Assembly (NCBI GenBank): GCA_004362315.1 | Contig: SNWL01000004.1 | Location: forward strand, 124,001 to 188,000 | Length of the DNA stretch: 64,000 bases | Reading direction: 5' to 3' | Source of the DNA: Mycobacterium sp. BK086 | GTDB lineage: Bacteria > Actinomycetota > Actinomycetes > Mycobacteriales > Mycobacteriaceae | Shown here: one piece after another, positions 1,151 to 46,459 of the stretch | Position numbering within the stretch: the stretch's first letter is position 1 | Layout: every line of letters begins with the position of its first letter | Translations under genes and position numbers: made by a program | The notes under the pieces: generated by a model | What the model saw: the letters and a program-made list of their open reading frames with translations, nothing else | The model's database searches: none | What the model was told of the DNA's origin: nothing

Positions 1151-1167
1151 ACTGTGAGTCTTACAGT
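1151..1167. promoter_or_regulatory. ACTGTA-type operator, site 1
   Basis: ACTGTGAGTCTTACAGT, a 7-3-7 inverted repeat with one mismatched pair. It lies in the divergent promoter between the molybdopterin oxidoreductase and the SCP2-ADH-P450-ferredoxin operon. It is one of seven related sites in this window, all in promoter regions of catabolic operons. Binding by the TetR protein at 23797-24531 is inferred, not shown. Confidence 0.6.
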
Positions 1168-1198
1168 TGTTCTCTCTTTTTCGGACAGGAGGGCCTCC

Positions 1199-1216
1199 GT
1201 ACCCCTTCGGGGATAC
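1199..1216 (+). other. Small hairpin in the probable 5' leader of the SCP2 operon
   Basis: GTA-CCCC / GGGG-A-TAC closes around a TTC loop with one bulged A, a 7-bp stem about 50 bp before the SCP2 start. A second short repeat, GGAGG-g-CCTCC (1188-1198), precedes it. Neither has a T-tract, and neither resembles a riboswitch that I know. The role is unknown. Confidence 0.3.
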
Positions 1217-1267
1217 AAACAGTCCCCACTCGGGTCTGACCGGGAGGCCACGGTCGGTGGTTGCATC

Positions 1268-1711
1268 GTGAGCATCGCGACAACCGAGCTGAAAGCGACT
1301 GGGACCATGGGCTTTTTCACCGATCAGGCAGAACTCGACACATACATCGGCGGGGTGTTCCGCGAGGCCGGCGAACACCCGGAATCGGGTCCCAAGCTCA
1401 AGGCCGCCAACATCGTCATGCGAGTGATCTACACCGACCCGGACTGCGAGATGACGATGGCGTTTCGCGACGACTACCAGGTCATCTCCGGCCCCACCGA
1501 CGTCAAGGCCGATGTCACACTGCTGATGCGCGGGGATACCGCAGACCAGTTCTGGCGCGGCGACTACAACCTGGCGATCGGACTGGCCAAGGGCCAGGTC
1601 AAGGCCAAGGGGCCGGTGAACAAGATCCTGAAGCTCGTTCCGCTCACCAAGCCGCTGTTTCCGATGTACCGCAGCAAGATCGCCGAGAAGGACGCCGCCG
1701 CCAATGCCTGA
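1268..1711 (+). CDS. SCP2 sterol-binding domain protein
   Basis: A 147-residue protein that is essentially one SCP2 (sterol carrier protein 2) domain, a small alpha/beta fold with a hydrophobic tunnel for acyl-CoAs, sterols or other lipids. Diagnostic stretches are MAFRDDYQVISG, ADVTLLMRGDTADQFWRGDYNLAIGLAKGQVKAKGP and the basic C-terminus. It has no catalytic residues, so a carrier or presenter role for a hydrophobic intermediate is likely. I chose the GTG at 1268; the ATG at 1307 would remove 13 residues and remains possible. It overlaps the next gene by 8 bp, so it is co-transcribed with the alcohol dehydrogenase, P450 and ferredoxin. This supports a hydrophobic substrate for the pathway. 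Confidence 0.85.
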   Translation: MSIATTELKATGTMGFFTDQAELDTYIGGVFREAGEHPESGPKLKAANIVMRVIYTDPDCEMTMAFRDDYQVISGPTDVKADVTLLMRGDTADQFWRGDYNLAIGLAKGQVKAKGPVNKILKLVPLTKPLFPMYRSKIAEKDAAANA

Positions 1712-4312: not shown

Positions 4313-5428
4313 TCAGGCCTGGTCCGACTGGTAGAGCAACGACACCGCTTCGACCCGGTTCTCCGCACCCACCTTGCGCAGGATGTGCTTCACGTGTTGT
4401 TTGACCGTGCCCTCTGAGATGAACAGCTTCGCGGCAATGGCGGCGTTGGTCCGGCCATGTGCCATCTGCTCGAGGATCTCGGTTTCCCGTGGCGTCAGGA
4501 CATCTCTGATCGAGTTCAGCGCCCGGCGAACAACTCTGGGCGCCGACGGCATATCGGCCTGGGTCTGCGCATCGTCGTCCAGCGTGAACTCGTGCGCGCC
4601 TGCGACGGCCTCCTCGCAGTCGTTGGCGGCCAACCGAAGTGCGGACCCCAACGCGTCGAGCTGTTCGACGGCACGGGCGCGACTGAGCGCCAGCGCCAAC
4701 CCGTTGGCATAGCCTGCGAGCAGTTCGACATCGGCGGCATCGATGTCCCGGTCGTGCAGATAGCAGTCGCCGTGCAGCAGTCCGACAACCCGGCCGCCGG
4801 ACATCACCGGCGCCGCGACATAGGACGTCGACCGCGAGGCATCCGCGATCGGCCGGTGCACGCGTCGGTCATGTTGGACATCGGTGACGATCCGGGCCTC
4901 CCGGCGACGGACGACTTCGGTTTCGTGCAAGCCGGGCACCAACGGCTGCGGCTGCTCCTGACCGACCCGGTTGATCTCGGCGGCCCACTGCGGATCCTCC
5001 GGTATGCACACCGAATGCGACACCCAGACGCCGTCGACGATGCGGGAGAAGATCGCCCGGTCGAAGCCGAGGTCCACCACCAGCCGCGGGGCCACGTCGG
5101 CCAGGCCGGCGACGGTACAGGGCGCTGCCTCCAGACGACCCAACACAGCGCCAAGCCGGCGCGAGCTGTCCTGCGCGGCCCGCAAGGATGCGTCCGCGCG
5201 GCGTACGGTCAGCAACGCGGTCAACGCGGTCTCCGCCGTGGGGGCCTCGGACAGCGCGTCGGCCAGCAATGACCATGCGTCGGAAACCACGGCGCGCGCG
5301 TCGGTTGAGGTCGGGCGGATGAGCGATCGCAATCCGGCCAGCAGAGCCTGCACCTGCGCATCCGACAGCGACGACACGAGCTCGGCGCCGTCGCTGTGAT
5401 CCACGCCATAAGGATAGTGGAAGGACAT
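4313..5428 (-). CDS. GAF-LuxR transcriptional regulator
   Basis: A 371-residue regulator with a GAF-like sensor in the middle (about residues 95-240, including GLLHGDCYLHDRDIDAADVELL) and a C-terminal LuxR/FixJ helix-turn-helix (about 305-365: LTPRETEILEQMAHGRTNAAIAAKLFISEGTVKQHV, given here as key features TPRE, AxxL and EGTVKxHV). It lacks a receiver domain, so it probably senses a small molecule through the GAF domain and is not phosphorylated. It lies between two catabolic operons and diverges from the thiolase operon at 5549. The ACTGTA site at 5491-5507 is in their shared promoter, so it may be both a regulator and a target within the island. Confidence 0.85.
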   Translation of the reverse strand: MSFHYPYGVDHSDGAELVSSLSDAQVQALLAGLRSLIRPTSTDARAVVSDAWSLLADALSEAPTAETALTALLTVRRADASLRAAQDSSRRLGAVLGRLEAAPCTVAGLADVAPRLVVDLGFDRAIFSRIVDGVWVSHSVCIPEDPQWAAEINRVGQEQPQPLVPGLHETEVVRRREARIVTDVQHDRRVHRPIADASRSTSYVAAPVMSGGRVVGLLHGDCYLHDRDIDAADVELLAGYANGLALALSRARAVEQLDALGSALRLAANDCEEAVAGAHEFTLDDDAQTQADMPSAPRVVRRALNSIRDVLTPRETEILEQMAHGRTNAAIAAKLFISEGTVKQHVKHILRKVGAENRVEAVSLLYQSDQA

Positions 5429-5490: not shown

Positions 5491-5507
5491 ACTGTAAGAA
5501 TTACAGT
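5491..5507. promoter_or_regulatory. ACTGTA-type operator, site 2 (perfect palindrome)
   Basis: ACTGTAA-GAA-TTACAGT, a perfect 7-3-7 inverted repeat and the best copy of the motif. It lies in the divergent promoter of the LuxR gene and the thiolase-like operon. TATGCT (5513-5518) just downstream could be the -10 box for the plus-strand operon. The site would then overlap the -35 region, a position typical of a repressor. Confidence 0.7.
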
Positions 5508-28095: not shown

Positions 28096-28118
28096 GTGTC
28101 CCCTCGCCGACCTATCCT

Positions 28119-28140: not shown

Positions 28141-28142
28141 CT

Positions 28143-28159
28143 ACTGTATGGCTATCCGT
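28143..28159. promoter_or_regulatory. ACTGTA-type operator, site 6
   Basis: ACTGTAT-GGC-TATCCGT, two bases after the GntR-type palindrome and 26 bp before the GTG of the plus-strand crotonase. The right half resembles site 3 (TATCGGT). Two regulators could therefore meet at this divergent promoter. Confidence 0.55.
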
Positions 28160-28185
28160 AAAGTGGCGGAAGGGCGGATTCTTCG

Positions 28186-28998: not shown

Positions 28999-29016
28999 GA
29001 GATGAGGGAACACACG

Positions 29017-30602: not shown

Positions 30603-32053
30603 TGCATCCACTGAGCCGGCGCATCGGCGAGGTCCTCGAGCTGGACCCCGAGGCGAGGGCGATCGAGTATGAGGGCGTGTGGTTCGGCTGGGACCAGCTC
30701 GGCACACTGAGCCGTCAGATCGCCGCAACGGTGCAGCCGGGCGCCCAGGTCGGAATCCTGTTACGCAACACCCCCGCCCACGTGGCGACACTTCTGGGTG
30801 TGTTGTCAGCCGGTGCATGCGTGGTCGTCATCAACCCATCACGGGGTGACGAACGCATCCGGGCCGATATCGCCGCGCTGAACCTGCCGGTGATCATCGG
30901 AACCGCCGACGACATCACCCAGCTGGCCGAGCCCGCCGACACCACCACCGTGGTGACGATCGGCAATCTCGACGACATCCCGCAGATCCGTGCCGGCGTG
31001 CCGCGCTACCCCGGGGTCGCGACGGTGGCCGTCCGGATGCTGACCAGTGGCACCACCGGTCCGCCCAAACGGGTCGACCTCACCTACGACATGCTGGCCG
31101 TGTCGGTCATCGGTACCGACTTCACCGATACCCCCGCGCCGTCGGGGGTATCGGGCAGCGTGGCTATCGTCAACGCCCCGCTGGTCCACATCGGTGGGGT
31201 GTACCGGGTCTTGCAATGCGTCTGTGAGGCAAGGCCGTTCGTGCTGTTGCCACGCTTCGAACTGACATCGTGGGCCGAGGCGGTGCGCCGCTATCGGCCC
31301 AAGGCGGTGTCACTGGTGCCCGCCGCGTTGCGGATGGTGCTGCACTCCGATCTGGGTCCCGACGACCTCGACGGCGTACGGGCCGTCACCTCCGGCACCG
31401 CGCCGCTGTCCGCCGAGGACGCCGACGCGTTCACCGAGAAGTTCGGTATTCCGGTGTTGACGTCATACGCGGCAACGGAATTCGGTGGCGGCGTGGCCGG
31501 CTGGACCTTCGCCGACCACCGCACGTACTGGAAGTCCAAGCGAGGCAGCGTCGGCCGGGCGAGCCTGGGCGCCCAACTGCGGGTGGTGTCCGAGGACGGC
31601 ACGCCGCTGGAGCCGGACCAGCAGGGCCTGCTCGAAGTCAAGCCGGGCCAGCTCGGCCGTGATGCGGACTGGGTGCGCACCACCGACCTTGCCCGCATCG
31701 ACGCCGACGGCTTCCTGTGGATTCTCGGGCGGGCCGATCAGGCCATCATCCGCGGCGGGTTCAAGGTCCTGCCAGACGATGTGCGTGCCGCGCTGGAGAG
31801 CCACCCCGCCGTGCTGGGAGCCGCGGTGGTGGGCCGGCCGGACGAGCGTCTTGGTGACACCCCGGTCGCGATGGTCGAGCTGCGTGACAGCGGCTCGGTC
31901 GGCGATATCGAGTTGGCCGACTACCTGCGAAGCCGGTTGGCGCCGTATGAGATTCCCTCGGAGATCGCGATCGTCGAGACAATTCCGCGGACGCCGTCCG
32001 GAAAGGCCGACCTGACCGCGGTCCGGCAACACTTCTCCGGCCGTGACCGCTGA
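30602..32053 (+). CDS. AMP-forming acyl-CoA synthetase (ANL), first of a tandem trio
   Basis: A 483-residue ANL ligase. The P-loop is TSGTTGPPKRV, in which the usual Lys-Gly is Lys-Arg; the A5 region is SYAATEFGGG; the hinge has ILGRADQAIIRGG; the catalytic Lys lies in TPSGKADLT. It is shorter than the 536-residue FadD at 17266, with a compact N-terminus. ATG at 30602 overlaps the crotonase stop. The next synthetase starts 11 bp before its stop, which implies translational coupling. Which acid it activates is unknown. Confidence 0.9.
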   Translation: MHPLSRRIGEVLELDPEARAIEYEGVWFGWDQLGTLSRQIAATVQPGAQVGILLRNTPAHVATLLGVLSAGACVVVINPSRGDERIRADIAALNLPVIIGTADDITQLAEPADTTTVVTIGNLDDIPQIRAGVPRYPGVATVAVRMLTSGTTGPPKRVDLTYDMLAVSVIGTDFTDTPAPSGVSGSVAIVNAPLVHIGGVYRVLQCVCEARPFVLLPRFELTSWAEAVRRYRPKAVSLVPAALRMVLHSDLGPDDLDGVRAVTSGTAPLSAEDADAFTEKFGIPVLTSYAATEFGGGVAGWTFADHRTYWKSKRGSVGRASLGAQLRVVSEDGTPLEPDQQGLLEVKPGQLGRDADWVRTTDLARIDADGFLWILGRADQAIIRGGFKVLPDDVRAALESHPAVLGAAVVGRPDERLGDTPVAMVELRDSGSVGDIELADYLRSRLAPYEIPSEIAIVETIPRTPSGKADLTAVRQHFSGRDR

Positions 32054-33512
32054 CACCGTCGGGCAGCTGCTGCGCGAGCGGGCCACCACCCGCGGCGATC
32101 ATCTCCTGCTGGTGTGTGACACCGACCGGCTCACCTACCGCGAGGCAGAGCAGCGTTCGGCGGTGCTGGCGCGGGGACTGATCGCACTGGGAGCCGGCAA
32201 GGGTACCCACATCGGACTGCTCTACCCCAACGGCTCGGCGTTTGTGGTGGCGATGCTGGCCGCGGCGCGCATCGGCGCCGTCGTGGTCCCGTTCTCCACG
32301 TTCTCCACCGAACGCGAGCTTCGCGACCAACTCGTGCACAGCGATGCCGAGATCCTGCTGGCCACAACGTCCTTCCGTGGACACGACTACGTCGCGCGAC
32401 TCGACGGAATGACGACCCCGTGGCTGCGTCATGTGGTATTCGACAACCAGATCGCCGATACCGCCGCACCGGAGTTGGCCGCGGGTATCGAGGACGACGT
32501 CGACGGCTGCGATCCGCTGGTGATCGTGTACACCTCGGGATCCACCGGTACGCCCAAAGGGGTCGTCCACACCCACGAGGCGCTGGTCGGACATCAGCGC
32601 AACCTCAACGCGATTCGCAGACTGACCGCCGACGACAGATTGTTCTGCAATTCACCGTTCTTCTGGATCGGTGGCCTGGGCTTCGGATTGCTCGCGACGT
32701 TGGTCGCGGGTGCGACCCTGGTGTGCTCCAACGCCGACGCCGGCGCGACCCTCGACCTGCTGGAAGAGGTGCGCCCGACGATGACCAACGGATTTGCTTC
32801 CGGCATACAGCATTTGGCACGCCACGAGAGCTTCGGAGACCGGGATCTGTCGTCTATGCGGCGGGGCAACCTCTATCCCATCATGGCACCCGCCGCCCGC
32901 CCGGCCGACCCGGAATTGCGCCACAACATGCTGGGGATGACCGAGGCAGGCAGTGTCGTCCTGCTCAGCGGCGACGAGACCGACCAGCCCGAGCACCGCC
33001 GCGGGTCGTTCGGCAAGCCGGCGCCGGGGTTCGAGGCGACGATCGTCGACGGTGAGCTGTGCCTCCGGGGCCGCTATCTCATGCAGGGGTACTACAAGCG
33101 CAGCCGCGAGGAATGCTTCGACGCCGACGGCTGGTTCCACACCGGTGATCTGTTCCGGACCGACGACGACGGGTTCTTCTACTTCGTCGGCAGAAGCGGA
33201 TCAATGATCAAAACCGCCGGGGCCAATGTCTTTCCGGCAGAGGTGGAGAAGGCCATCGCCACCGTCACCGGTGGACTGGTGGCCCACGTGCTCGGACTCC
33301 CCGACCCGGGGCGCGGCCAACTCGTCGCCGCGGCGGTGCTCGTTCCCGACGGCGGCACGTTCGACGAAGCCGCCGTGCGGGACAGGCTCAAGACCGAACT
33401 CTCGTCGTACAAGATCCCCCGCCGGTTCGCCACCCTCAGGCCGGACGAGCTGCCACTGAGATCCAGCGGCAAGGTCGACCTCGCCCGGCTCGCGGCGGTG
33501 TTCGATGCCTGA
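32043..33512 (+). CDS. AMP-forming acyl-CoA synthetase (ANL), second of the trio
   Basis: A 489-residue ANL ligase. Signatures: TSGSTGTPKGVVHTH, NMLGMTEAGS, the aspartate of FHTGDLF, FVGRSGSMIKTAGANVFPAEVE and the C-terminal Lys in RSSGKVDLARL. All residues for adenylation and thioesterification appear intact. GTG start at 32043 within the previous gene. It is more similar in layout to the third synthetase than to the first (both have xFFWIGG or PFFWVGG and a GMTE motif), so a local duplication is likely. Confidence 0.9.
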   Translation: MTADTVGQLLRERATTRGDHLLLVCDTDRLTYREAEQRSAVLARGLIALGAGKGTHIGLLYPNGSAFVVAMLAAARIGAVVVPFSTFSTERELRDQLVHSDAEILLATTSFRGHDYVARLDGMTTPWLRHVVFDNQIADTAAPELAAGIEDDVDGCDPLVIVYTSGSTGTPKGVVHTHEALVGHQRNLNAIRRLTADDRLFCNSPFFWIGGLGFGLLATLVAGATLVCSNADAGATLDLLEEVRPTMTNGFASGIQHLARHESFGDRDLSSMRRGNLYPIMAPAARPADPELRHNMLGMTEAGSVVLLSGDETDQPEHRRGSFGKPAPGFEATIVDGELCLRGRYLMQGYYKRSREECFDADGWFHTGDLFRTDDDGFFYFVGRSGSMIKTAGANVFPAEVEKAIATVTGGLVAHVLGLPDPGRGQLVAAAVLVPDGGTFDEAAVRDRLKTELSSYKIPRRFATLRPDELPLRSSGKVDLARLAAVFDA

Positions 33513-34980
33513 GACCGTCGACGCTCTGATCCGGATCCAGGCGACCCTCGGCGACAAGCCGTTCGTCATCGACACCACGGGCCGGATGAGCTACGCCGAA
33601 CTCGATTCCGTGACAGCCACTCTCGCCAGAGAACTGGTCGGAGCCGGAATCGGCAAAGGCAGCAGGGTCGGGCTGATCATGCCCAACAACGTGCGGTGGG
33701 TACAGCTGGCCCTGGCGCTGACCCGCGTCGGCGCGGTGTTGGTTCCGCTGAGCACACTGCTGACCGCACGCGAACTCACCGCCCAGCTCCGGACGGCCTC
33801 GGTGCAGTATCTGATCGCCGTCGAGGAGTTCCGCGGCCACCGATACCTGGACGATCTGTCCGGGCTCCCGGCGCTGCGGCAGGTTTGGCGTGCCGACGAA
33901 TTGCCCACCGGCACTCCCGTTTCCGGCATCGGCGAACTGGCCGGCACCGTGGTACCCGCCGACCCGATGGCCATCATGTTCACCTCCGGTAGCAGTGGTC
34001 CGCCCAAGGGAGTGATCCACTCGCACGGCAGCGCACTGGCGGCCGTCCGATCCGGCCTGGCCGCCCGTTGCATCGACGCCGGCACCAGGCTGTACCTGCC
34101 GATGCCGTTCTTCTGGGTCGGCGGCTTCGCCGGCGGCATCCTGTCCGCTCTGATTGCCGGGGCCACCCTCGTGACCGAGGAGATCCCCTCTCCCGTTGCC
34201 ACCCTGCGACTCCTGGAGCGCGAGAAGGTCACTCTGTTCCGCGGATGGCCCGATCAGGCCGAGACCCTGGCCCGCCGTGCCGCCGACGTACGGGCCGACC
34301 TGTCCGCGTTGAGGCCGGGCAGCCTCGAGGCGCTGCTGCCCGCCGACCAGCGCGCCGAGGCAGGGGCACGAGCCAAGCTCTTCGGGATGACCGAGGCCTT
34401 CGGGCCGTACTGCGGCTACCGCGCCGACACCGATATGCCACGGTCGGCATGGGGCAGCTGCGGAAAGCCGTTCGACGGCATGGAGGTTCGCATCGTGGAT
34501 ACGGGCACAGGCGCTCCGGTCCCGTCGGGCGCGATCGGCATGATCCAGATCCGCGGACCACACACGCTGCGCGGTGTCTGCCGGCGCGGCCGCGAGGAGG
34601 TTTTCACCGCCGACGGCTTCTACCCGACCGGCGACCTCGGGCACCTCGACGACGATGGGTTCCTGTTCTACCACGGCCGATCCGACCACATGTTCAAGGT
34701 CAGCGGCGCCACCGTCTACCCCGGCGAGGTGGAGGCCGCGCTCCGGGAGATCGACGGTGTGCGGGCGGCGTACGTCACCGACGTCGGCGGAAGGGTCGGC
34801 GCTGCCGTCATCAGCCGTCACTCGACCGACGAGTTGCGCACCCAGGCGCGGTCGATGCTGAGCTCGTTCAAGGTGCCGACAGTCTGGCTGCTGCTCGATT
34901 CCGACGAGGACGTTCCCCGTGGCGCCACAGGAAAGGTCGACGTCCAGCGCCTGCGTGAGTTGCTGGCCGGAGAGGCGTAA
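33505..34980 (+). CDS. AMP-forming acyl-CoA synthetase (ANL), third of the trio
   Basis: A 491-residue ANL ligase: TSGSSGPPKGVIHSHG, LFGMTEAFGPY, YPTGDLGHLDDDGF, YHGRSDHMFKVSGATVYPGEVE and the C-terminal Lys in GATGKVDVQRL. It overlaps the second synthetase by 8 bp. Three synthetases in a row, each co-translated with the next, indicate several acid intermediates or a family of related substrates. It ends 10 bp before the MDMPI-like gene. Confidence 0.9.
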   Translation: MPETVDALIRIQATLGDKPFVIDTTGRMSYAELDSVTATLARELVGAGIGKGSRVGLIMPNNVRWVQLALALTRVGAVLVPLSTLLTARELTAQLRTASVQYLIAVEEFRGHRYLDDLSGLPALRQVWRADELPTGTPVSGIGELAGTVVPADPMAIMFTSGSSGPPKGVIHSHGSALAAVRSGLAARCIDAGTRLYLPMPFFWVGGFAGGILSALIAGATLVTEEIPSPVATLRLLEREKVTLFRGWPDQAETLARRAADVRADLSALRPGSLEALLPADQRAEAGARAKLFGMTEAFGPYCGYRADTDMPRSAWGSCGKPFDGMEVRIVDTGTGAPVPSGAIGMIQIRGPHTLRGVCRRGREEVFTADGFYPTGDLGHLDDDGFLFYHGRSDHMFKVSGATVYPGEVEAALREIDGVRAAYVTDVGGRVGAAVISRHSTDELRTQARSMLSSFKVPTVWLLLDSDEDVPRGATGKVDVQRLRELLAGEA

Positions 34981-34990
34981 CTTTCATGGC

Positions 34991-35599
34991 GTGACCCTCG
35001 CCGAGCGCATCGACCTCTATCGGCTCGCCGGTGACCACGCCATCGCGGTGGCCGCCCAGGTACCCACGGACCGGTGGGACACCCCTGCCCTCGGCACGTG
35101 GACGGTGCGCACGCTGGTCGGTCATATCGGCCGGTCGTTCACCACCGTCGTCGACTACTCGGCTCGGCCGGCCGATCGCGTGGACGTTGCGGACTCGGCG
35201 CAGTACTACCTGGCGATCGCCCCGATGCTGACCGACCCGGCGGCGATCGACGCCCGCGCCGTGCAGGCCGGGCTGGCGCTGGGCGATGACCCTGTGACCG
35301 CCCTTCGGGAACTGCAGGATGGCGCGGCCACCGCACTGGTGACCGACGATCGGGTCATCGCGACCATCGCCGGCGGGATGCGACTGTCGGACTACCTGCC
35401 CACCCGCATCTTCGAACTCGGGCTGCACAGCGTGGACCTGGCCCGGGCCATCGGTGTCGCCGAAACACTGCCGCCCGAGATCGTCGACAGCATCCTGGGT
35501 CTCGCTGTCCAGGTGGCGCAGCGCCGCGGTGACGGTCAGGCGCTGATGTGTGCGCTCACCGGCCGTGGCCAGTTCCCGGCCGGCTATTCGGTAGTGTGA
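34991..35599 (+). CDS. Maleylpyruvate isomerase-like / DinB-fold protein
   Basis: A 202-residue four-helix-bundle protein of the mycothiol-dependent maleylpyruvate isomerase N-terminal/DinB_2 group. The metal-site histidines can be recognised in GDHAIAV, VGHIGRSF and LGLHSVDLARA. In actinobacteria such proteins can be mycothiol-dependent isomerases or transferases, though many are uncharacterised. The start is the GTG at 34991, 10 bp after the synthetase; an in-frame extension back to 34919 lies inside that gene. As the last gene of the operon, a mycothiol-dependent isomerisation in the pathway is a reasonable guess. Its end overlaps the convergent GntR gene by 16 bp. Confidence 0.75.
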   Translation: MTLAERIDLYRLAGDHAIAVAAQVPTDRWDTPALGTWTVRTLVGHIGRSFTTVVDYSARPADRVDVADSAQYYLAIAPMLTDPAAIDARAVQAGLALGDDPVTALRELQDGAATALVTDDRVIATIAGGMRLSDYLPTRIFELGLHSVDLARAIGVAETLPPEIVDSILGLAVQVAQRRGDGQALMCALTGRGQFPAGYSVV

Positions 35600-36267
35600 A
35601 ACCGCTGCGCCACACCTTGTTTCACCAAGTGTTCGATCAGGGGTGCGGCCCCGGCCGCCAGATGCTGTGACATCGCCGCTCTGGCGCGATCCTCGTCGTG
35701 TGCCTTGAGGGCTGCCAGGATCCGCTTGTGGTCGGCAATCGATTTCGCCGGCCATCCCTCGATGGTGGGGAACACCGATTCCGGTGCGTACCTGGTGATC
35801 TGGGACATCAACTGGGCGAGCTTCGGGGAATCCGCCGCGACGTTGATGGCCCGGTGGAACTCGTGGTTCAACCGCACCGCGCGGGCGTCGTCGGCGGCAT
35901 AGGCCTCGACCAGCTCGTCGTGGATCGCGGACAACTCCCGCAGCTGCTCGTCGGTGATGTTCAGCGCTGCCCGGGCAGCCAGCTGGCCGCCGACGTACGC
36001 CTGCAGGTTCGAGACGTCGTTGATATCCCGGTCGGTGAACGGCAGGACGACGAAACCGCGCCGCGGCAATTGATCCAGCAGGCCTTCGCCGCGCAGCTCG
36101 AACAGCGCTTCGCGCACCGGGGTGACACTGATACCCAATTCGGCCGCCAGCTGATCCAGCCGGATGTACTCACCGGCCGGGTAGGTGCCGTTGAAGATCC
36201 GGGTCCGGACGAACCGGGCGACGTCCTCGGCCAGCTGCGGGCGTGGCGCGAAATCGGGCGCGCTCAT
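35584..36267 (-). CDS. GntR-family regulator, FCD subfamily (second)
   Basis: A 227-residue GntR regulator: winged helix at about 10-70 (YIRLDQLAAELGISVTPVREAL, key features LDQLA and TPVREAL) and FCD domain at about 80-215 (LNHEFHRAINVAA, IADHKRILAALKAHD). I chose the ATG at 36267, 1 bp after the acyl-CoA dehydrogenase stop. It is the last gene of the SDR-thiolase-acyl-CoA dehydrogenase-GntR operon. The ATCATAT palindrome at 39455-39473 lies in front of that operon, so the protein probably regulates its own operon and the divergent one. An organic acid or acyl-CoA ligand is likely from family behaviour. Confidence 0.9.
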   Translation of the reverse strand: MSAPDFAPRPQLAEDVARFVRTRIFNGTYPAGEYIRLDQLAAELGISVTPVREALFELRGEGLLDQLPRRGFVVLPFTDRDINDVSNLQAYVGGQLAARAALNITDEQLRELSAIHDELVEAYAADDARAVRLNHEFHRAINVAADSPKLAQLMSQITRYAPESVFPTIEGWPAKSIADHKRILAALKAHDEDRARAAMSQHLAAGAAPLIEHLVKQGVAQRFHTTE

Positions 36268-36268
36268 G

Positions 36269-37462
36269 TCAGATCCGGTAGTCGGCAAGCAGCCGCTTGC
36301 TGATGATGTTCTTCTGGATCTCGCTGGTGCCCTCGCCGATGAGCAGGAAGGGTGCGTCGCGCATCAGCCGCTCGATTTCGTACTCCTTGGAGTATCCGTA
36401 GCCGCCATGGATGCGGAAGCTCTGCTGGGTGACCTCCGCGCAGAACTCACTGGCCAGGTACTTCGCCATACCGGCGGCCACATCGTTGCGTTCACCGGAG
36501 TCCTTCAGCCGCGCGGCGTTGACCATCATCAGATGTGCCGCTTCGACTTTCGTGGCCATCTCGGCCAGCTGGAAGGCGATGGCCTGATGCTCGGCGATCG
36601 GCTTGCCAAAGGTGCTGCGCTGCTGGGCATAGCGGACCGCCAGCTCGAACGCGCGAATGCCCACCCCGCAGGCGCGGGCCGAGACGTTGACACGGCCGAC
36701 CTCGACGCCGTCCATCATCTGGAAGAAGCCCTGCCCCGGCTTGGCGCCCAGCACGTCGTCGGCGCTGGCGACATAGCCGTCGAAGACCAGCTCGGTGGTG
36801 TCGATGCCCTTGTAGCCGAGCTTGTCGAGCTTGCCGGGGATCGTCAGGCCCGGGGCGACTTCGCCGAAGCCGGACGGCTTTTCGATCAGGAAGGCGGTCA
36901 GGTTGCGGTGCGGCTTGTCCGCACCTTCGTCGGTGCGCACCAGCGCCGCGACGAGAGTCGAGCTGCCGCCGTTGGTCAGCCACATCTTCTGGCCGTCGAT
37001 CGTGTAGGTGCCGTCGCCGTTGTTCTTCGCCTTGGTGCGGATCGCGGCGACGTCAGAACCCAACTCGGGCTCCGACATCGAGAACGCACCCCGAATCTCG
37101 CCGGTGGCCATCCGGCGCAGGAAGCGCTGCTTCTGCTCGTCGGTGCCGTGCTGCCGGATCATGTAGGCCACGATGAAGTGGGTGTTGATCACCCCGGACA
37201 CACTCATCCAGCCGCGGGCCAGCTCCTCGACGCACAGCGCGTAGGTGAGCAGCGACTCCCCCAGCCCGCCGTACTCTTCGGGAATCATCAGGCCGAACAG
37301 GCCCATCTCCCGCATCTGGTCGACGATGGCCTGCGGATAGGTGTCGGAGTGCTCGAGCTCCTGGGCGTTGGGGATGATCTCCTTGTCGACGAATTGCCGT
37401 ACGGTGGAGACGATTTCGGTCTGGACCTCGGTCAGGCCGAGCGTTTGAGCAATACGGGTCAT
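36269..37462 (-). CDS. Acyl-CoA dehydrogenase, canonical
   Basis: A 397-residue acyl-CoA dehydrogenase with the complete catalytic set: SMSEPELGSDVAAI (flavin motif), TNGGSSTLVA, the arginine-rich FGKPIAEHQA segment, and GEGTSEIQK with the catalytic Glu. In this it differs from the two YGGT variants in the 10-20 kb operon. The start is the ATG at 37462, which overlaps the thiolase stop by 4 bp; upstream read-through is not coding. It gives an enoyl-CoA, with ETF as acceptor. Third of four genes with an SDR, a thiolase and a GntR regulator, a near-complete beta-oxidation set that lacks only a hydratase. Confidence 0.93.
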   Translation of the reverse strand: MTRIAQTLGLTEVQTEIVSTVRQFVDKEIIPNAQELEHSDTYPQAIVDQMREMGLFGLMIPEEYGGLGESLLTYALCVEELARGWMSVSGVINTHFIVAYMIRQHGTDEQKQRFLRRMATGEIRGAFSMSEPELGSDVAAIRTKAKNNGDGTYTIDGQKMWLTNGGSSTLVAALVRTDEGADKPHRNLTAFLIEKPSGFGEVAPGLTIPGKLDKLGYKGIDTTELVFDGYVASADDVLGAKPGQGFFQMMDGVEVGRVNVSARACGVGIRAFELAVRYAQQRSTFGKPIAEHQAIAFQLAEMATKVEAAHLMMVNAARLKDSGERNDVAAGMAKYLASEFCAEVTQQSFRIHGGYGYSKEYEIERLMRDAPFLLIGEGTSEIQKNIISKRLLADYRI

Positions 37463-38676
37463 GCGCCCACCCTTTCGAACACCGCGGCCAGGCCCTGGCC
37501 GCCGCCGATGCACATCGTCTCCAACCCGTAGCGGGCATCCCGACGAACCAGCTCGCGGGCCAGCGTCGCCAGCATTCGCCCACCGGTGGCGCCCACCGGG
37601 TGACCCAGCGAGATCCCGGACCCGTGCACGTTGGTGCGCTCGAAATCCGCTGCGGTGAAATTCCATTCGCGTGTGCACGCTAAAGCTTGCGCGGCGAACG
37701 CCTCGTTGAGTTCGATGAGGTCCATATCGGCCAGCGTCAGGCCGGCCTTGGCCAGCGCGACCTCGGTGGCTGGGACCGGCCCGATGCCCATCACGTTCGG
37801 GGCAACACCGGCCACACCCCACGACACCATCCGGACCAACGGGGTCAGCCCGAGGTCGGCGGCCTTGTCCCGGGTCGTCACCACGCACATCGAGGCCGCG
37901 TCGTTCTGCCCGCTGCTGTTGCCTGCCGTCACCGTCGCGTCCGGATCCGATTTACTTAGAACGGGTTTGAGCTTCGCCAAGGTCTCCACAGAGGTGTCGG
38001 CGCGGGGATGTTCGTCGGTCTCGATCACCTCGTCGCCAGCACGGCTGGTGACGGTGACTCCAATGATGGTCTCCGCCAGCAGTCCGTCCTTCTGGGCGGC
38101 GACCGCACGCTGGTGCGATCGGACCGCGAGCTCGTCCTGCTCGGTGCGGCCGATGTCGTACTGCTTACGCAGATTCTCTGCGGTCTCGAGCATTCCGCCG
38201 GGGACCGGGTAATGCTTACCGCCCGCTGTGGTGCGTCCCCGTGCCAGCGCGTCGTGCACCTTGACTCCGCCGCGGGCTCCACCCCACCGCATATCCGTCG
38301 AGTGGAACACCACGTTGCTCATCGACTCGGCGCCGCCAGCGACGACGAGATCGTTGTTGCCACTTGCCACTTGCATGCAGGCCTGGATGACCGCCTGCAG
38401 TCCCGACCCGCAGCGCCGGTCGAGCTGCATGCCCGGAACCGTCACCGGCAGACCGGCATCCAGCGCGATCACCCGGCCGATCGCCGGCGCCTCCATGCTC
38501 GGGTAGCAGTGCCCGACGATCACGTCTTCGACCGCGTCGGCCGGGATACCGGTGCGCTGCAGCAGACCGGTCAACGCGGCCACGCCGAGATCCACCGCGG
38601 TCAGCGACTTGAACATGCCGTCATAGCGGCCGATCGGAGTCCGTACCGGTTCGCAGATGACGACCTCGGTGGTCAC
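37459..38676 (-). CDS. Acetyl-CoA acetyltransferase (thiolase), complete active site
   Basis: A 405-residue thiolase. C89 ([10 protein letters not shown]) is the nucleophile, H359 (GHPVGATG) and C389 (CIGGGQG) complete the site, so it should cleave 3-ketoacyl-CoAs. It resembles the FadA5/FadA6 group by length and motif style, though I do not assign either name. GTG start at 38676, overlapping the SDR stop (GTGA). It is the second true thiolase in the window. Confidence 0.93.
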
Positions 38677-39413
38677 AGGTGCCGTCCGCCGGTGACCTCC
38701 AGAACGGTGCCGGTCATGTAGGACGACAGGTCGGAAGCCAGGAACAGTGCGACCTTGGCGACCTCGGACGGCTCGCCGGCGCGGCCGAGCGGCACCTCGG
38801 CCACCTTGGAATCCCAAATGCGTTGCGGCATGGCCTCGGTCATCGCCGAGCGGATCAGGCCCGGCTGAATGGCGTTGACCCGCACACCCAGATGCGCGAG
38901 TTCCTTGGACGCGGCCTTGGTCATACCCACGATGCCGGCCTTGGCTGCCGAATAGTTGGTCTGCCCGATCATGCCGACCTTGCCGGAGATCGAGGACATG
39001 TTCACGATCGCGCCGCGCTTCTGCTCACGCATCACCGTCGAAGCCTTCTTCAGGCCGTTCCAGGTGCCCTTTAGGTGTACCGAGATCACCTGGTCGAACT
39101 CGTCCTCGGTCATCTTGCGCAGGGTGGCGTCGCGGGTGATCCCGGCGTTGTTCACCATGATGTCGAAACTGCCGAACTGCTCGATGGCCGAGTCGACGAG
39201 TGCGTCGACATCCGCGTAGGCGGTGACATTGCACTGAAAGGCGCGGGCGACGTCGGCGCCGCCGAGCTTGTTGACCGCCTCCTGGGTCGCGTCGAGATTG
39301 AGATCGCCGAGCACCACACGGGCACCCTCGGCGATGAACTGCTCGGCGATCGCAAAGCCGAGGCCCTGCGCTCCACCGGTGATGACCGCGGTCTGGCCGG
39401 CCAGCAACGACAT
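38673..39413 (-). CDS. FabG-like SDR, probable 3-hydroxyacyl-CoA dehydrogenase
   Basis: A 246-residue classical [19 protein letters not shown] after strand 2 (acidic, NAD-type), [19 protein letters not shown] and YSAAKAG, ending in [10 protein letters not shown]. It closely follows the FabG pattern. Being the first gene of an operon with a thiolase and an acyl-CoA dehydrogenase, it most likely oxidises a 3-hydroxyacyl-CoA. Its ATG is 42 bp from the palindromic operator at 39455-39473. Confidence 0.92.
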
Positions 39414-39454
39414 CTGATCTCCCTCTTCCTTCGACGGACCCCCGAATTGGCAAC

Positions 39455-39473
39455 ATCATATTTCATATATGAT
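39455..39473. promoter_or_regulatory. 19-bp inverted repeat, probable operator of the second GntR
   Basis: ATCATAT-TTCAT-ATATGAT, perfect 7-bp arms with a 5-bp spacer, in the 94-bp divergent promoter of the SDR operon and the acyl-CoA dehydrogenase at 39508. TATGAT within the right arm could be the -10 box for the plus-strand gene. It is AT-rich in a GC-rich setting. The GntR gene at 35584 is the local candidate. Confidence 0.7.
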
Positions 39474-39507
39474 CGCCGGAGCCAGTGCCCCCGACCCAAG
39501 GAGCCTG

Positions 39508-40671
39508 ATGACTGACGTCAGCGACGACGACTTCCGCGAGATTTTGGCCCAGACCCGCCACTTCGTGCGGTCGGCCGTGGTGCCACGGGAGGCGGAGATC
39601 ATGGCCGAGGACAAGGTCCCCGACGATCTGCGCGACCAGGCCAAGAAGATGGGCCTGTTCGGCTACGCGATCCCCCAGGACTGGGGTGGGCTGGGCCTGA
39701 ACATCGCTCAGGACGTCGAGCTTGCGATGGAAATGGGCTACACGAGCCTGGCGCTGCGGTCGATGTTCGGCACCAACAACGGCATCGCCGGCCAGGTGCT
39801 GGTCGGGTTCGGCACCGACGAACAGCGGGCACGCTGGCTGGAGCCGATCGCGTCGGGCGAGGTCGTCGCGTCGTTCGCGCTCACCGAGCCGGGCGCGGGC
39901 TCCAATCCGTCCGGCCTGAAGACGAAAGCCGTTCGCGACGGCGACAGTTGGGTGATCAACGGACGCAAGCAATACATCACCAACGCGCCGGTGGCCAACC
40001 TGTTCATCGTGTTCGCCCGCACCCGGCCCGCAGACGAGAACGGCGCGGGCATCGCGGTGTTCCTGGTGCCCGCGGACACGCCGGGCGTCGAAATCGGGGC
40101 CAAGGACGCGAAGATGGGCCAGGAGGGCGCCTGGACGTCGGATGTGAACTTCACCGACGTCCGGGTCGGCGACGACACCCTGGTCGGCGGCAGCGAGGAC
40201 ATCGGCTACCGGGCGGCTATGACATCCTTGGCGCGCGGCCGCATCCACATCGCCGCGCTGGCCGTCGGCTCCGCCCAGCGGGCGCTCGACGAGTCGGTCG
40301 CCTACGCCGCGACCGCGACGCAGGGCGGCACCCCGATCGGCAATTTCCAACTGGTGCAGGCGATGCTAGCCGATCAGCAGACCGGGGTGATGGCCGGGCG
40401 CGCGCTGGTGCGCGACGCCGCACGCAAGTGGGTCGACAACGAGGACCGCAGGATCGCCCCGTCGGTGGCCAAGCTGTTCTGCACCGAAATGGCAGGCAAC
40501 GTAGCCGATCTCGCGGTTCAGGTGCACGGCGGAGCGGGTTACATGCGCGGTGTGCCGGTCGAGCGGATCTATCGCGAAGTGCGTCTGCTACGACTGTATG
40601 AGGGCACCAGCGAAATTCAGCGCCTCATCGTGGGCGGCGGACTAGTCAAGGAAGCGCAGCGCAAAGCATGA
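39508..40671 (+). CDS. Acyl-CoA dehydrogenase, canonical
   Basis: A 387-residue acyl-CoA dehydrogenase with FALTEPGAGSNPSG, INGRKQYITNA and LYEGTSEIQR carrying the catalytic Glu. The sequence AVQVHGGAGYMRGVPVERIYREVR is the usual C-terminal signature. The start is the ATG at 39508 after AAGGAG; an upstream in-frame ATG at 39469 lies inside the operator and has no ribosome site. It is co-transcribed with the mycofactocin-type SDR (ATGA overlap at 40668). Confidence 0.93.
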   Translation: MTDVSDDDFREILAQTRHFVRSAVVPREAEIMAEDKVPDDLRDQAKKMGLFGYAIPQDWGGLGLNIAQDVELAMEMGYTSLALRSMFGTNNGIAGQVLVGFGTDEQRARWLEPIASGEVVASFALTEPGAGSNPSGLKTKAVRDGDSWVINGRKQYITNAPVANLFIVFARTRPADENGAGIAVFLVPADTPGVEIGAKDAKMGQEGAWTSDVNFTDVRVGDDTLVGGSEDIGYRAAMTSLARGRIHIAALAVGSAQRALDESVAYAATATQGGTPIGNFQLVQAMLADQQTGVMAGRALVRDAARKWVDNEDRRIAPSVAKLFCTEMAGNVADLAVQVHGGAGYMRGVPVERIYREVRLLRLYEGTSEIQRLIVGGGLVKEAQRKA

Positions 40672-41489
40672 CAGGAAAGCTCAGCGGCAAGGTCGCATTC
40701 ATCACCGGAGCCGCTCGCGGCCAGGGCCGCGCGCACGCGGTGAAGATGGCCGCCGAAGGCGCCGACATCATCGCCGTCGACATCGCGGGCAAGCTGCCGG
40801 ACTGCGTCCCCTACAACCCGGCCACCCCCGAAGAGTTCGCCGAGACCGTGCGCCTTGTCGAGGCCACCGGGCAGCGGATCGTGTCGGCCGTCGTCGACAC
40901 CCGCGACCTCGAAGGCCTCAAGGACGTGGTTGCCGACGGTGTCGCCAAGCTGGGCCGCCTCGACATCATCGTCGCGAACGCGGGTATCACCTCGCCGGCC
41001 GCGTGGGATGAAATCACCCCGGAGGCGTTCCGGGATGTCATGGACGTCAACGTGACCGGGACGTGGAACACCGTGATGGCCGGGGCGCCAACAATGGTCG
41101 AGGCCGGGCGCGGTGGATCGGTAATCTTGATCAGCTCGGCGGCCGGTATCAAGCTGCAGCCGTTCATGGTGCACTACACCGCGAGCAAGCACGCGGTGAC
41201 CGGCATGGCCCGGGCCTTCGCCGCCGAACTCGGCAAGCACAACATCCGGGTCAACAGCGTGCACCCCGGCCCGGTCAACAGCGATATGGGCACCGGCGAC
41301 ATGGTGGCGGCGCTGGGCAAGGCGATGGAGACCAACCCGGCGTTGGAAAAGATGATGATGCCGTTCCTGCCGGTCTACATCGCCGAGCCCGAGGACATCG
41401 CCGACACGGTCTGCTTCCTGGCCAGCGATGATGCGAAACTGATTACCGCTGAAGCGATTTCCGTGGATCAGGGCTCGACGAAGTACTGA
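40668..41489 (+). CDS. Mycofactocin-coupled type SDR
   Basis: A 273-residue SDR with TGAARGQGRAHAVKMAAEGADIIAVDI and an insertion of about 20 residues after strand 2 (GKLPDCVPYNPATPEEFAET). This arrangement defines the mycobacterial subfamily whose nicotinamide is held tightly and which is thought to be re-oxidised by mycofactocin (carveol dehydrogenase-like). The active site is NAGITS, SSAAG and YTASK. It probably oxidises a secondary alcohol. It needs the mycofactocin genes elsewhere in the genome; none are in this window. Its last 47 bp overlap the convergent alpha/beta hydrolase gene. Confidence 0.88.
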   Translation: MTGKLSGKVAFITGAARGQGRAHAVKMAAEGADIIAVDIAGKLPDCVPYNPATPEEFAETVRLVEATGQRIVSAVVDTRDLEGLKDVVADGVAKLGRLDIIVANAGITSPAAWDEITPEAFRDVMDVNVTGTWNTVMAGAPTMVEAGRGGSVILISSAAGIKLQPFMVHYTASKHAVTGMARAFAAELGKHNIRVNSVHPGPVNSDMGTGDMVAALGKAMETNPALEKMMMPFLPVYIAEPEDIADTVCFLASDDAKLITAEAISVDQGSTKY

Positions 41490-43739: not shown

Positions 43740-44810
43740 CTAGCTTGTGATCAGTTCCAGGGTGCCCAGATCGCGAATGGCCGCACAGCCTCGGCGCAGC
43801 ATCGCCGCCATCATGTCGTCGCCACGTTCGGTCTCCACCGCGAACGCGCAGCCCAGCGCTGAGATCAGCGGAACCTGGATCATGCCCAACAGGTAGTCAT
43901 GCCAACAGGTCTGGGCGTCGTAGCCGCTCACGCCGGTGTCCAGCAGCGCTCGATGGTATTCGGCGACCAGGTCCTTCTCGGCGTGCGCCCGCAAGGCGGG
44001 TTCCAGGCTCGTGCCGGTGAAGTACGCCAGGTCGCGGCCGGCCAGCCCGACACCGAGCGTCTGCCAGTCGACGACGCTGACCCGCTCGCCGTCGAAGAGC
44101 AGATTGTCCAGCCGGTAGTCACCATGCAGCAACGCGAACCGCTCGGGCGCGTTCAGCAGCCATGGCGTCACCAAATCCATGGCGGCGACCAGGGTTTCGG
44201 CATCCTCGGCATTCAGCCGCGACCCGAGCTTCTCGACCGTGATACCCGCGGCCATCTTGGAGATGTCGCCGAGACCGCGGATGGCGTCCTCCCCGACGAC
44301 CGACATCGCCAGGCCGGGAAAGGTCTGCCACTGCGGATCGCACCACGTCGGACCGTGCAGCCCGGCCAGCGCACGCACGGCAAGGCGGGCCTCCGGCAGA
44401 TCGCAGCCGGCGATCTGATCGCCCTGCACGGCCGGCGCCTGATCGGCCAGCAGCAGTGCGTAACTGGCGCCCTCGTCGGCGATGGAGACGTGGTAGCACT
44501 GCGGAATCGGGATCGTCACAAGCTCGGCGACCGACTGATAGAAGGCGCACTCGCTGCGATAGCCGAGCGTCACCCGGTCCCGAACGGCGTCGTCGCCGGC
44601 GGGCAACTTCAGGATGAAGCTGGTCGGCAGGTCGGCGTCGCCGCCATAGGTGGCTTTGACCCGGAAGGTGGCGCCGGTCTGGCCGGTCCCCACCGGACTC
44701 ACCTCGACGCTCTCGACCTCGACGGGTGCACCGGGGCGGCTGAGGATGCCGGCCAGCCAGCCGCCGGTGACGTCCGAGGGGTAACGGGGAATCGCGGTCG
44801 GGGCGCTCAT
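43740..44810 (-). CDS. APH-family phosphotransferase
   Basis: A 356-residue protein with the aminoglycoside-phosphotransferase/choline-kinase fold. The catalytic loop is LLHGDYRLDNLLF and the metal Asp is in VVDWQTLGVG. Such proteins occur in mycobacterial lipid and steroid gene clusters and, fused to acyl-CoA dehydrogenases, in ACAD10/11, where they phosphorylate 4-hydroxyacyl-CoAs. A similar role on a hydroxylated intermediate is possible; antibiotic modification is less likely given the operon. The start is the ATG at 44810, overlapping the SDR stop; a longer in-frame reading is not supported. Confidence 0.85.
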   Translation of the reverse strand: MSAPTAIPRYPSDVTGGWLAGILSRPGAPVEVESVEVSPVGTGQTGATFRVKATYGGDADLPTSFILKLPAGDDAVRDRVTLGYRSECAFYQSVAELVTIPIPQCYHVSIADEGASYALLLADQAPAVQGDQIAGCDLPEARLAVRALAGLHGPTWCDPQWQTFPGLAMSVVGEDAIRGLGDISKMAAGITVEKLGSRLNAEDAETLVAAMDLVTPWLLNAPERFALLHGDYRLDNLLFDGERVSVVDWQTLGVGLAGRDLAYFTGTSLEPALRAHAEKDLVAEYHRALLDTGVSGYDAQTCWHDYLLGMIQVPLISALGCAFAVETERGDDMMAAMLRRGCAAIRDLGTLELITS

Positions 44811-45631
44811 GATGACGGTTGCCTTCTGTCGGTGCGTTGCTGGTCGACGAACCGCACAGCCATCCGGTTGAGCAAGCCGGGTGCCAGACGCGCGAAAAGC
44901 CACGCCATGCGGGCCTGACGGGGTGCGACCAGGAGGGCCTTGTTGCGTTCGATGGCCCGGAGCGTATCGGCGGCCAGCCGGTCCGGGCTATAGAACGTCT
45001 CACTGCGCTGACCCATCTGATAGAACTCGCGTCCGTTGAAGTCGCCGAGCCAGCCCTTGTCCAGGATCGGGGTGTCCACCGCGGTCGGGCAGATGGCCAG
45101 CACGCCGACTCCCCGGCCGACGGCCTCGGTGCGCAGAGCCAGCGACAGCCCGACGATCGCGTGCTTGCTCATCACATAACTGGTGATCCGGCCTGCCGCG
45201 GCGAGGCCCGCCATGGAAGCGGTGTTGACGATGTGGCCGCTGCGCTGGCGAACCATGTGCGGGTAGGCGGCATGCACGCCGTGGACGACGCCGCGGATGT
45301 TCACATCGATGATGCTGTTCCACTGATCGAGGGTCAGCAGCTCGGTGTCGCCGCCCCAGGTGATACCGGCGTTGTTGAACAGCAAGTCGATTCGGCCGGT
45401 GCGCTCGACAAGGCCGTCGACCGCTGCCTGCACGGCGGCCGCGTCGGTGACGTCGAGTTGTGCTGACGTGCCGCGCTTGGCCAGTGAGGCCGCGGTGCGT
45501 TCGGCGGCGTCGCCGTCGATATCGGTGCACACCACGTCGGCGCCGGCACCGGCCAGGGCCCGGCACAGTGCCGCGCCGATGCCCGAGCCGGCACCCGTGA
45601 CGATCGCCTGCTTGCCGGCGAATCGGGTCAC
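44807..45631 (-). CDS. Short-chain dehydrogenase/reductase
   Basis: A 274-residue SDR: TGAGSGIGAAL, NNAGITWGG, NTASMAG and the active site Tyr-Lys in YVMSKHA. The C-terminus (LLVAPRQARMAWLFARLAPGLLNRM) is longer and more hydrophobic than in FabG-like enzymes, a pattern of mycobacterial SDRs acting on lipid-like substrates. GTG start overlapping the upstream SDR stop (GTGA). Substrate unknown. Confidence 0.9.
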   Translation of the reverse strand: MTRFAGKQAIVTGAGSGIGAALCRALAGAGADVVCTDIDGDAAERTAASLAKRGTSAQLDVTDAAAVQAAVDGLVERTGRIDLLFNNAGITWGGDTELLTLDQWNSIIDVNIRGVVHGVHAAYPHMVRQRSGHIVNTASMAGLAAAGRITSYVMSKHAIVGLSLALRTEAVGRGVGVLAICPTAVDTPILDKGWLGDFNGREFYQMGQRSETFYSPDRLAADTLRAIERNKALLVAPRQARMAWLFARLAPGLLNRMAVRFVDQQRTDRRQPSS

Positions 45632-46398
45632 GCCGACGCCATCCGGTCGACGTGGGCGAGCACGTCGGGATAGCGCTTGAGATGGGCGCCGCCGTTGAGG
45701 TCGAGGACCTCACCGGTGAGCCAGGAGGCTTGGTCCGAGCAGAGGAACAGCACGGCCTCGGCGACGTCTTCGGGGACACCGACCCGGCCGAGCGGCGTGT
45801 TCTCGATGTAGTCCTCCAGGACTCCGTCGGCCAGGGTGACCAGCTCGGTCAGCGGGGTGTGGACGAAGCCTGGCGAGACGGCGTTGACCCGGATGCCGCG
45901 CGGGCCCAGTTCCAGGGCGGCCACCTGGGTGAGCATCGCCAGACCGGCTTTGGCCGAACAGTACGCACTCATGCCCGGCGCTGCGAGCCGCGCATTCAGC
46001 GAGGTGATCGATACCAGCGATCCGCCCGCACGCAACTGGCGGCCGGCGTACTTCATGACGATGAAACCGCCGGTGAGGCAGCAGTCGACGATCGCCCGGA
46101 AATCCTCGACGGGTTGTTCGGTGATGCGGCCGAAGCCGCCGAACCCGGCGGTGTTCACCACGATGTCGACTTCGCCGGTCCGCTCGAACAGCGCAGCGAC
46201 GCTGGCTTCGTCGGTGACGTCCACCTCCGCGGCGTCATGCGGTGCCCCGAGTTCGGCGGCCCGCTCGTGCGCTCCCTCGGCGTTGCGGTCGGCGATGGTG
46301 ACTTGCCGACCGCCGTCGGCAAGCCCCTTCGCCACCGACCAGCCGATCCCCGACGCGCCGCCGATGACAACCGCTCGCTGCACTGCACTTTCCGGCAT
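45628..46398 (-). CDS. Short-chain dehydrogenase/reductase, first gene of the five-gene operon
   Basis: A 256-residue SDR with GGASGIGWSV, NTAGFGGFG (Thr instead of the second Asn), SITSLNARLA and YCSAKAGLA, ending in LTGEVLDLNGGAHLKRYPDV. The triad is intact. It begins the operon SDR-SDR-kinase-FMO-hydrolase, and an ACTGTA-type site lies 45 bp upstream of its ATG. Confidence 0.9.
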   Translation of the reverse strand: MPESAVQRAVVIGGASGIGWSVAKGLADGGRQVTIADRNAEGAHERAAELGAPHDAAEVDVTDEASVAALFERTGEVDIVVNTAGFGGFGRITEQPVEDFRAIVDCCLTGGFIVMKYAGRQLRAGGSLVSITSLNARLAAPGMSAYCSAKAGLAMLTQVAALELGPRGIRVNAVSPGFVHTPLTELVTLADGVLEDYIENTPLGRVGVPEDVAEAVLFLCSDQASWLTGEVLDLNGGAHLKRYPDVLAHVDRMASA

Positions 46399-46442
46399 CT
46401 GGCCTCCCAGGACGCTCAGGCGGGTTCGCTCATGTCGTGTCT

Positions 46443-46459
46443 ACTGTAAGGCATACGGC
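46443..46459. promoter_or_regulatory. ACTGTA-type operator, site 7
   Basis: ACTGTAA-GGC-ATACGGC. The left half is perfect, the right half weak. It lies upstream of the operon 46398-41443 and marks the right-hand end of the island. Confidence 0.45.

Follow-up and report, generated by a model that had tools for sequence, protein, structure and literature searches.

A conserved palindrome and a linked TetR-family gene point to a large catabolic regulon in Mycobacterium sp. BK086

Which protein, if any, reads the short repeated elements that stand before catabolic operons in one gene cluster of Mycobacterium sp. BK086? The elements lie in and beside a 64,000-nucleotide stretch of the 6.93-Mb genome (assembly GCA_004362315.1, contig SNWL01000004.1, positions 124,001 to 188,000; G000:C2:124001-188000 in our own labelling), which we call the window. 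All positions are those of the window, and negative coordinates lie to its left. A preliminary description, made from the letters, had reported seven copies of a 17-bp operator across a 46-kb island and had proposed that they make up the regulon of the TetR-family gene at 23797. We computed the motif, its positions, its conservation, its linkage to this TetR and the constancy of the recognition helix. From these we conclude that the sites in the cluster are very probably operators of a TetR-type repressor encoded at 23797-24531 (plus strand), with binding, repression, ligand and substrate predicted from what is usual in the TetR family.

The repeated element and its distribution in the genome

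All seven of the sequences reported earlier were found, letter for letter, at their coordinates and on their strands. A loose form of the element, ACTGTANNNNNNWNNGT, matched six of these seven places in the window (seven strand matches, one place being palindromic); the seventh, at 46443, ends in GGC and falls outside this form. In 100 dinucleotide shuffles of the window, the loose form was found 0.10 times on average and at most once. Across the whole genome it was unspecific, giving 19 strand matches compared to 26 for the reversed pattern, and its matches outside the cluster were unconvincing as a set; the one at C3:83231, for example, falls within a subtilase-like gene. The underlying motif is a true palindrome, ACTGTA-N5-TACAGT, in which one half is often degenerate. 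With up to two mismatches, ACTGTAANNNTTACAGT occurred at 7 places in 6.93 Mb and its reversed pattern at 3. Five of the seven places are in the cluster (-9090, -2390, 1151, 5491 and 23661), and the last of these is the TetR gene's own promoter. Searched as patterns across the genome, the palindromic form is specific and the loose form is not.

We then scored sites with a weight matrix over the window plus 20 kb on either side (104 kb), for which we called the genes ourselves (g0 to g101). The matrix, which also served for the genus and other-genus scans, was trained on 8 of 11 own-genome sites and 4 orthologous ones; the sites at 46443, -7672 and -17627 were left out of the training. At 12 bits or more it placed 11 sites in the 104 kb (-17627, -9090, -7672, -2390, 1151, 5491, 20992, 23661, 25763, 28143 and 46443), against a single match in 400 kb of control DNA, made up of twenty 20-kb stretches of the same genome. 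None of the 11 sites overlapped a called gene, in a region where intergenic DNA makes up just 7,071 of 104,000 bases, and they stand 13 to 120 bp from a start codon. Looser thresholds brought in coding matches (1 of 12 at 11 bits and 7 of 19 at 8 bits). The reported sites are thus real and do lie in promoter gaps, but their number, at least 11, and their span, about 64 kb and reaching beyond the window's left edge, both exceed the seven copies and 46 kb first described.

Conservation of the sites and association with the TetR gene

The product of 23797-24531 matched TetR_N (PF00440, E 5.7e-12, 45.7 bits against a cutoff of 24) and a TetR-type C-terminal domain, TetR_C_1 (PF02909, E 5.4e-12, 46.2 bits against a cutoff of 21). 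Among named records, the ten nearest, such as those of M. sphagni and M. rhodesiae, carry copies that are 90 to 95% identical to it, which marks the host as an environmental-type mycobacterium. Close homologues (E <= 4.4e-77) were present in 152 of the 198 genomes of our genus sample, for which all counts follow from E-value or identity cutoffs. Other genera of the family have homologues too, and a plasmid search at E<=1e-20 returned two distant ones. The recognition helix, GVTSIYWYFR, was identical in 29 of 29 homologues, while identity over residues 81 to 230 dropped to 40%. A constant helix paired with a constant operator is as expected if this TetR reads the motif.

The presence of the palindrome follows that of the gene. 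The exact form of ACTGTAANNNTTACAGT was found in 113 of the 198 genus genomes, whereas the reversed pattern was found in 2. Every one of the 113 belonged to the 152 with a close TetR homologue, compared to none of the 46 without one (Fisher 9e-22, over related and hence non-independent genomes); seven of these 46 carry homologues at E 1e-41 to 1e-58. Elsewhere in the family, ACTGTANNNNNTACAGT occurred in 13 of 23 TetR-positive but only 3 of 249 TetR-negative genomes (Fisher 1e-13), as against 1 of 23 and 28 of 249 for the reversed pattern.

Promoter alignments and site scans, within the genus and beyond it, used regions fetched around this TetR. In the TetR promoter (within 250 bp), the best 17-mer carried at least 10 of the 12 half-site letters in 15 of 20 genomes and at least 9 in 17 of 20, although in one of the 15, L062, it differs from the aligned copy. 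When the 20 promoters were aligned with that of the window, a copy around ATA-N-N-N-N-TTACAGTA stood out in most rows from flanks that had diverged, so the own-promoter copy noted earlier is a conserved candidate operator. The site at 20992, before g37, kept at least 9 letters in 14 of 16 genus genomes that have the gene, in a form resembling ACCGATAGGT(A/G)TACAGT. The site at 28143, before g46, kept at least 8 in 15 of 15 genomes and at least 9 in 13 of 15.

A matrix scan of related genomes had also been proposed, and in ten further species of the genus, over 60 kb from each, sites were present at the majority of these promoters. The matches fell mostly on the same orthologous gaps, with a few weak ones elsewhere, such as one inside g55 of G151; in two of the regions, those of G102 and G119, the TetR marked for the scan is a paralogue and not the orthologue. 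As a counterpart of the site at 1151, G151, G136 and G102 have a g19 orthologue divergent to a g25 orthologue, the two sharing one perfect palindrome. Counterparts of the site at 5491 are perfect palindromes 36 to 46 bp before the g25 orthologue in these three genomes and in G028 and G087, and sites similar to that at 46443 precede g63 in G151 and G136 and g62 in G028. Over the 35 kb examined in G172 (L296, L051), g10-g39 and g43-g51 are missing, and the TetR, its own site and the g2/g3 (carboxyltransferase) site are kept.

Outside the genus, 13 regions from 11 genomes of six other genera differ in gene order and carry sites before orthologues of g17/g18, g34-g37, g45/g46, g29 and others. The 20992 form recurs before orthologues of the g34-g37 operon in G360, G227, G335, G388, G310 and G340, and a match lies at most 200 bp upstream of TetR in 10 of the 13 regions. 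Two regions, G340a and G427, contain little of the cluster and three matches each. A separate matrix, built from the 11 own-genome sites alone, gave 78, 59, 48 and 24 matches in the 400 kb of other-genus regions at thresholds of 12, 14, 16 and 18 bits, respectively. Two hundred column-permuted matrices gave means of 7.1, 2.6, 0.91 and 0.2 and largest values of 53, 33, 27 and 6, so none reached the observed number at any threshold. On a 400-kb control from the own genome, the own-sites matrix returned 1, 0, 0 and 0 matches.

Several observations weigh against assigning all of these sites to the TetR at 23797. In L064, L067 and L068, 3 of the 20 genus genomes, the TetR promoter has at most 8 of the 12 letters, and second-best 17-mers reach 8 to 9, so that 9 letters alone are weak. 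Of the seven sites first proposed as operators, the one at 25763, before g42, is the weak member and the least conserved, with at least 10 letters in 2 of 15 genomes. Across relatives the promoters do not uniformly have a site of at least 12 bits (the TetR promoter of G183 has none), no match lies near TetR in the other-genus regions of G360, G409 and G227, and some relatives carry a second TetR with the same helix. As for the association, 39 of the 152 TetR-positive genus genomes lack the exact palindrome and some family palindromes are far from TetR. Over the whole family sample the real pattern occurred in 39 of 301 genomes and the reversed one in 31 of 301; with totals this close, the signal lies in the association and not in the total. 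The presence of TetR in the fetched regions is by construction. Furthermore, TetR-negative genus genomes had no close orthologue of the Ltp gene g25 among the matches listed, so this share of the association is accounted for by loss of the cluster as a unit, and co-occurrence alone cannot separate reading of the motif by this TetR from joint loss of the whole cluster. Finally, a consensus search of 23500-28300 turned up no sigma-70-type promoter, and overlap of the sites with core promoters is accordingly to be read as a prediction.

Two palindromes in distant relatives are of separate interest. At G311:C1:1411849-1411865, ACTGTAGGTAATACAGT lies little over 100 bp before the match start of a TetR homologue of 39% identity, which suggests an operator that predates the present regulon. 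In G225, a genome with no TetR match at E<=1e-40, two tandem palindromes of the ACTGTACGCCGTACAGT type at C27:38083 and 38105 probably belong to another system.

Other candidate readers of the motif

The cluster encodes further regulators, and two of the sites lie beside evidence of them: the site at 5491 is within the promoter of a LuxR-GAF gene, and that at 28143 abuts a GntR-like palindrome. A reading in which the LuxR-GAF protein, a GntR or the upstream TetR of the island recognises the motif is nonetheless very improbable. Whereas 113 of the 198 genus genomes have the palindrome, the LuxR (E<=1e-60) was matched in 9, the upstream TetR in 43 and the GntR at 26672 (at least 75% identity) in 71, and on this distribution we rejected all three. 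Linked regulators were also compared over 24 regions, 11 from the genus (our own included) and 13 from other genera. Four linked regulators other than the TetR were missing from all 13 other-genus regions, while sites persisted there before orthologous genes; the second GntR (35584-36267), tested locally, was missing from 2 of 10 genus regions as well as from these 13. Nor do we give appreciable credence to the idea that the repeats are core promoter elements, for instance a shared -10 such as TACAGT, which fits the relaxed mycobacterial -10 TANNNT. Distances of 13 to 120 bp from start codons would suit such elements, but both half-sites are conserved in a fixed 17-bp geometry, and the palindromic form hardly occurs outside one cluster and tracks the TetR gene across genera.

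The sites could also be split between two regulators, the clean palindromes on the left (-9090, -2390, 1151 and 5491) being another protein's and the degenerate sites at 21 to 28 kb being this TetR's. The left sites do outscore most of those on the right, a second TetR (48 to 50% identical) lies inside the left zone in G102 and G119, and G409, G335 and G388 carry two TetR copies 22 to 24 kb apart. We nevertheless consider this split improbable. The other 8 of the 10 genus genomes show just one TetR copy across the 60 kb fetched and yet keep perfect or one-mismatch left palindromes, the TetR gene's own site is itself a two-mismatch member of the palindrome, and half-site, spacing and recognition helices are alike. 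The genome's one other homologue at E<=1e-40, a paralogue on C7 that is 42 to 45% identical, has the helix PVTSIYWHFR and was outside the 29 compared, is without a site of at least 12 bits in the 20 kb examined. Two unrelated motifs are unlikely, given the shared spacing, half-site and helix and the single TetR within the 60 kb fetched from 8 of 10 genus genomes with both groups of sites.

The paralogues found in G102, G119, G409, G335, G388 and G133 make a different arrangement plausible, in which one operator code serves two sensors. The TetR and a neighbouring paralogue would share the helix and the operators, their ligand domains having diverged (down to 40% identity), and at some promoters the three half-sites, 12 bp apart, would make up overlapping operators with room for two dimers. 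In G133:C1:1955001-1990000 (L294, L295), the frame of the TetR orthologue is interrupted, a second TetR copy is present and the sites persist. We regard the shared arrangement as a tentative possibility and not as our expectation; if it is true, two different metabolites could gate one regulon. The motif itself offers a family-wide test of operator sharing by paralogous repressors.

Assignment of the motif to the TetR at 23797 is supported by the own-promoter copy, by the 113/152 versus 0/46 association and by the rarity or absence of other regulators where sites persist. The regulon first proposed keeps its regulator, with three revisions: the element proves fully palindromic, the set of targets has grown, and in some relatives the same recognition helix is found in a second TetR.

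Predicted regulon, known systems and target operons

If the TetR at 23797 acts as proposed, its dimer would read both halves of ACTGTA-N5-TACAGT at 11 or more promoter regions. The protein would sit close to, and probably overlap, core promoters, with occlusion near start sites as the most likely means of repression. Bound TetR would block a large catabolic pathway of the acyl-CoA type, about 50 genes when adjoining genes on the same strand are counted, together with its own gene. Among these predicted targets are P450s, a KshA-like Rieske oxygenase, luciferase-like and flavin monooxygenases, CoA ligases and transferases, acyl-CoA dehydrogenases, crotonases, thiolases and amidohydrolases. Release would come from a pathway metabolite, probably a CoA thioester to judge by the family. 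Searches of the P450s against solved structures returned nothing at E<=1e-60, the Rieske protein matched distant KshA alone, and one amidohydrolase matched PDB 4dzi, a putative TIM-barrel metal-dependent hydrolase (E 5.7e-223). Judged by the TetR, 152 of 198 Mycobacterium species sampled and several other genera of the family appear to hold this catabolic programme. An operator this sharp marks out the genes of the pathway and supplies a reporter for a derepression screen aimed at the substrate.

Within a familiar type, TetR-controlled catabolism, the regulon looks new: a search of openly licensed papers for the motif or the regulon turned up other regulators or unrelated work and no description of this operator, regulator or regulon. 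The nearest solved structures by sequence are tetracycline repressors (5mru, E 3.9e-13), which share the TetR_C_1 domain; identity is low over a partial match and, unlike theirs, the predicted targets here are catabolic. The tetO half-site, ACTCTAT, resembles ACTGTAA, and the centre of the tetO operator differs. The cluster sites show no evident resemblance to the AAGCAAGnnCTTGCTT-like operator of KstR2. According to PMC1995591, KstR is an autoregulated TetR repressor whose 14-bp palindrome, TnnAACnnGTTnnA, stands in the promoters of many lipid- and cholesterol-catabolic genes and is conserved in mycobacteria. The system proposed here is alike in its TetR repressor, its predicted autoregulation, its palindrome before many catabolic genes and its mycobacterial conservation. 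It differs in the motif itself, ACTGTA-N5-TACAGT; by eye, AACnnGTT of the KstR motif (PMC1995591) occurs in 0 of the 11 site sequences, which agrees with the earlier remark that there was no KstR match. BkaR, as portrayed in PMC3920632, is a TetR repressor with the core GTTANTN4ANTAAC that controls 10 genes in M. smegmatis. It likewise pairs a TetR repressor with an autoregulatory palindrome and neighbouring catabolic operons, but by eye none of our 11 sites fits its core. PMC6593523 and PMC4482099 describe motif X of a mycobacterium, a palindrome that is linked to a TetR, precedes catabolic operons containing P450s and SDRs and is assigned to an Rv0767c orthologue, and the latter source covers 30 TetR regulators arranged by M. 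tuberculosis gene. A palindrome before P450/SDR catabolic operons is a likeness in arrangement to motif X and its Rv0767c-like TetR.

To the left of the window, the site at -17627 (not in the training set) lies between genes for a luciferase-like monooxygenase and a carboxyltransferase, and that at -9090 between an FAD oxidoreductase and a luciferase-like monooxygenase. The site at -7672, also outside the training set, separates a SnoaL_4 protein from KshA-like Rieske, isochorismatase-like and P450 genes, and the one at -2390 separates aldehyde dehydrogenase and SDR genes from a CoA-transferase III gene. Within the window, the candidate operator ACTGTAAGACTCACAGT at 1151-1167 (minus strand, score 23.8) occupies the divergent promoter between g19, a molybdopterin oxidoreductase, and g20-g23, which include a protein with a weak, sub-cutoff SCP2 match, an ADH and a P450. 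At 5491-5507 (plus, score 27.3), ACTGTAAGAATTACAGT is a perfect 7-3-7 palindrome between the LuxR-GAF gene and the divergent Ltp-thiolase/CoA-transferase/amidohydrolase operon. The LuxR-GAF regulator (4313-5428), with its matches in 9 of 198 genus genomes, seems to be a late addition to a divergent promoter whose operon is older.

Further right, ACTGTACACCTATCGGT at 20992-21008 (plus) is a candidate operator 5' of a nine-gene minus-strand operon (20944-10544) that includes a P450, three acyl-CoA dehydrogenases, three amidohydrolases, an AMP-binding ligase and an enoyl-CoA hydratase (ECH). The candidate autoregulatory operator, ACTGTAAACCCTATAGT at 23661-23677 (minus), lies between the TetR gene and an ECH/SDR/DHDPS-like operon. 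A weaker candidate, ACTGTAGCGCTGACGGT at 25763-25779 (plus, score 16.4), precedes a thiolase gene (25719-24544, minus). The candidate ACTGTATGGCTATCCGT at 28143-28159 (plus) stands between unknown, GntR and ECH genes on one side, where the nearest gene starts at 28095 (minus), and, on the other, a plus-strand operon (28186-35599) of three crotonases of the ECH type, three AMP-binding ligases and one MDMPI_N protein. No site was found by the matrix in the block 35584-41489. The last candidate, ACTGTAAGGCATACGGC at 46443-46459 (plus, score 16.6, not in the training set), would serve a minus-strand operon (46398-41443) with two SDRs, an APH-like protein, a flavin monooxygenase and a hydrolase.

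The g45/g46 promoter, near 28.1 kb, contains three half-sites in many relatives, each 12 bp from the next. In our genome the leftmost of the three is unrecognisable and a TTGTACAA palindrome stands in its place; a candidate GntR/FCD operator, CTATCTTGTACAAGATAG, spans 28121-28138. Of the genus rows compared, 7 of the 8 with the adjacent GntR (26672-27442) have TTGTACAA intact, and none of the 8 without it does. The regulator at 26672-27442 (minus; PF00392, PF07729) is therefore a likely candidate, on this co-occurrence, for a second regulator of the promoter.

One unlinked site, ACTGGAAGTATTACGGT at G000:C3:844432, precedes an SDR gene by about 12 bp; its locus also contains a further KshA-like Rieske gene, and the site is a possible member of the regulon outside the cluster. 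At the right edge of the island, the window encodes a sulfate permease fused to a carbonic anhydrase domain (46848-49055).

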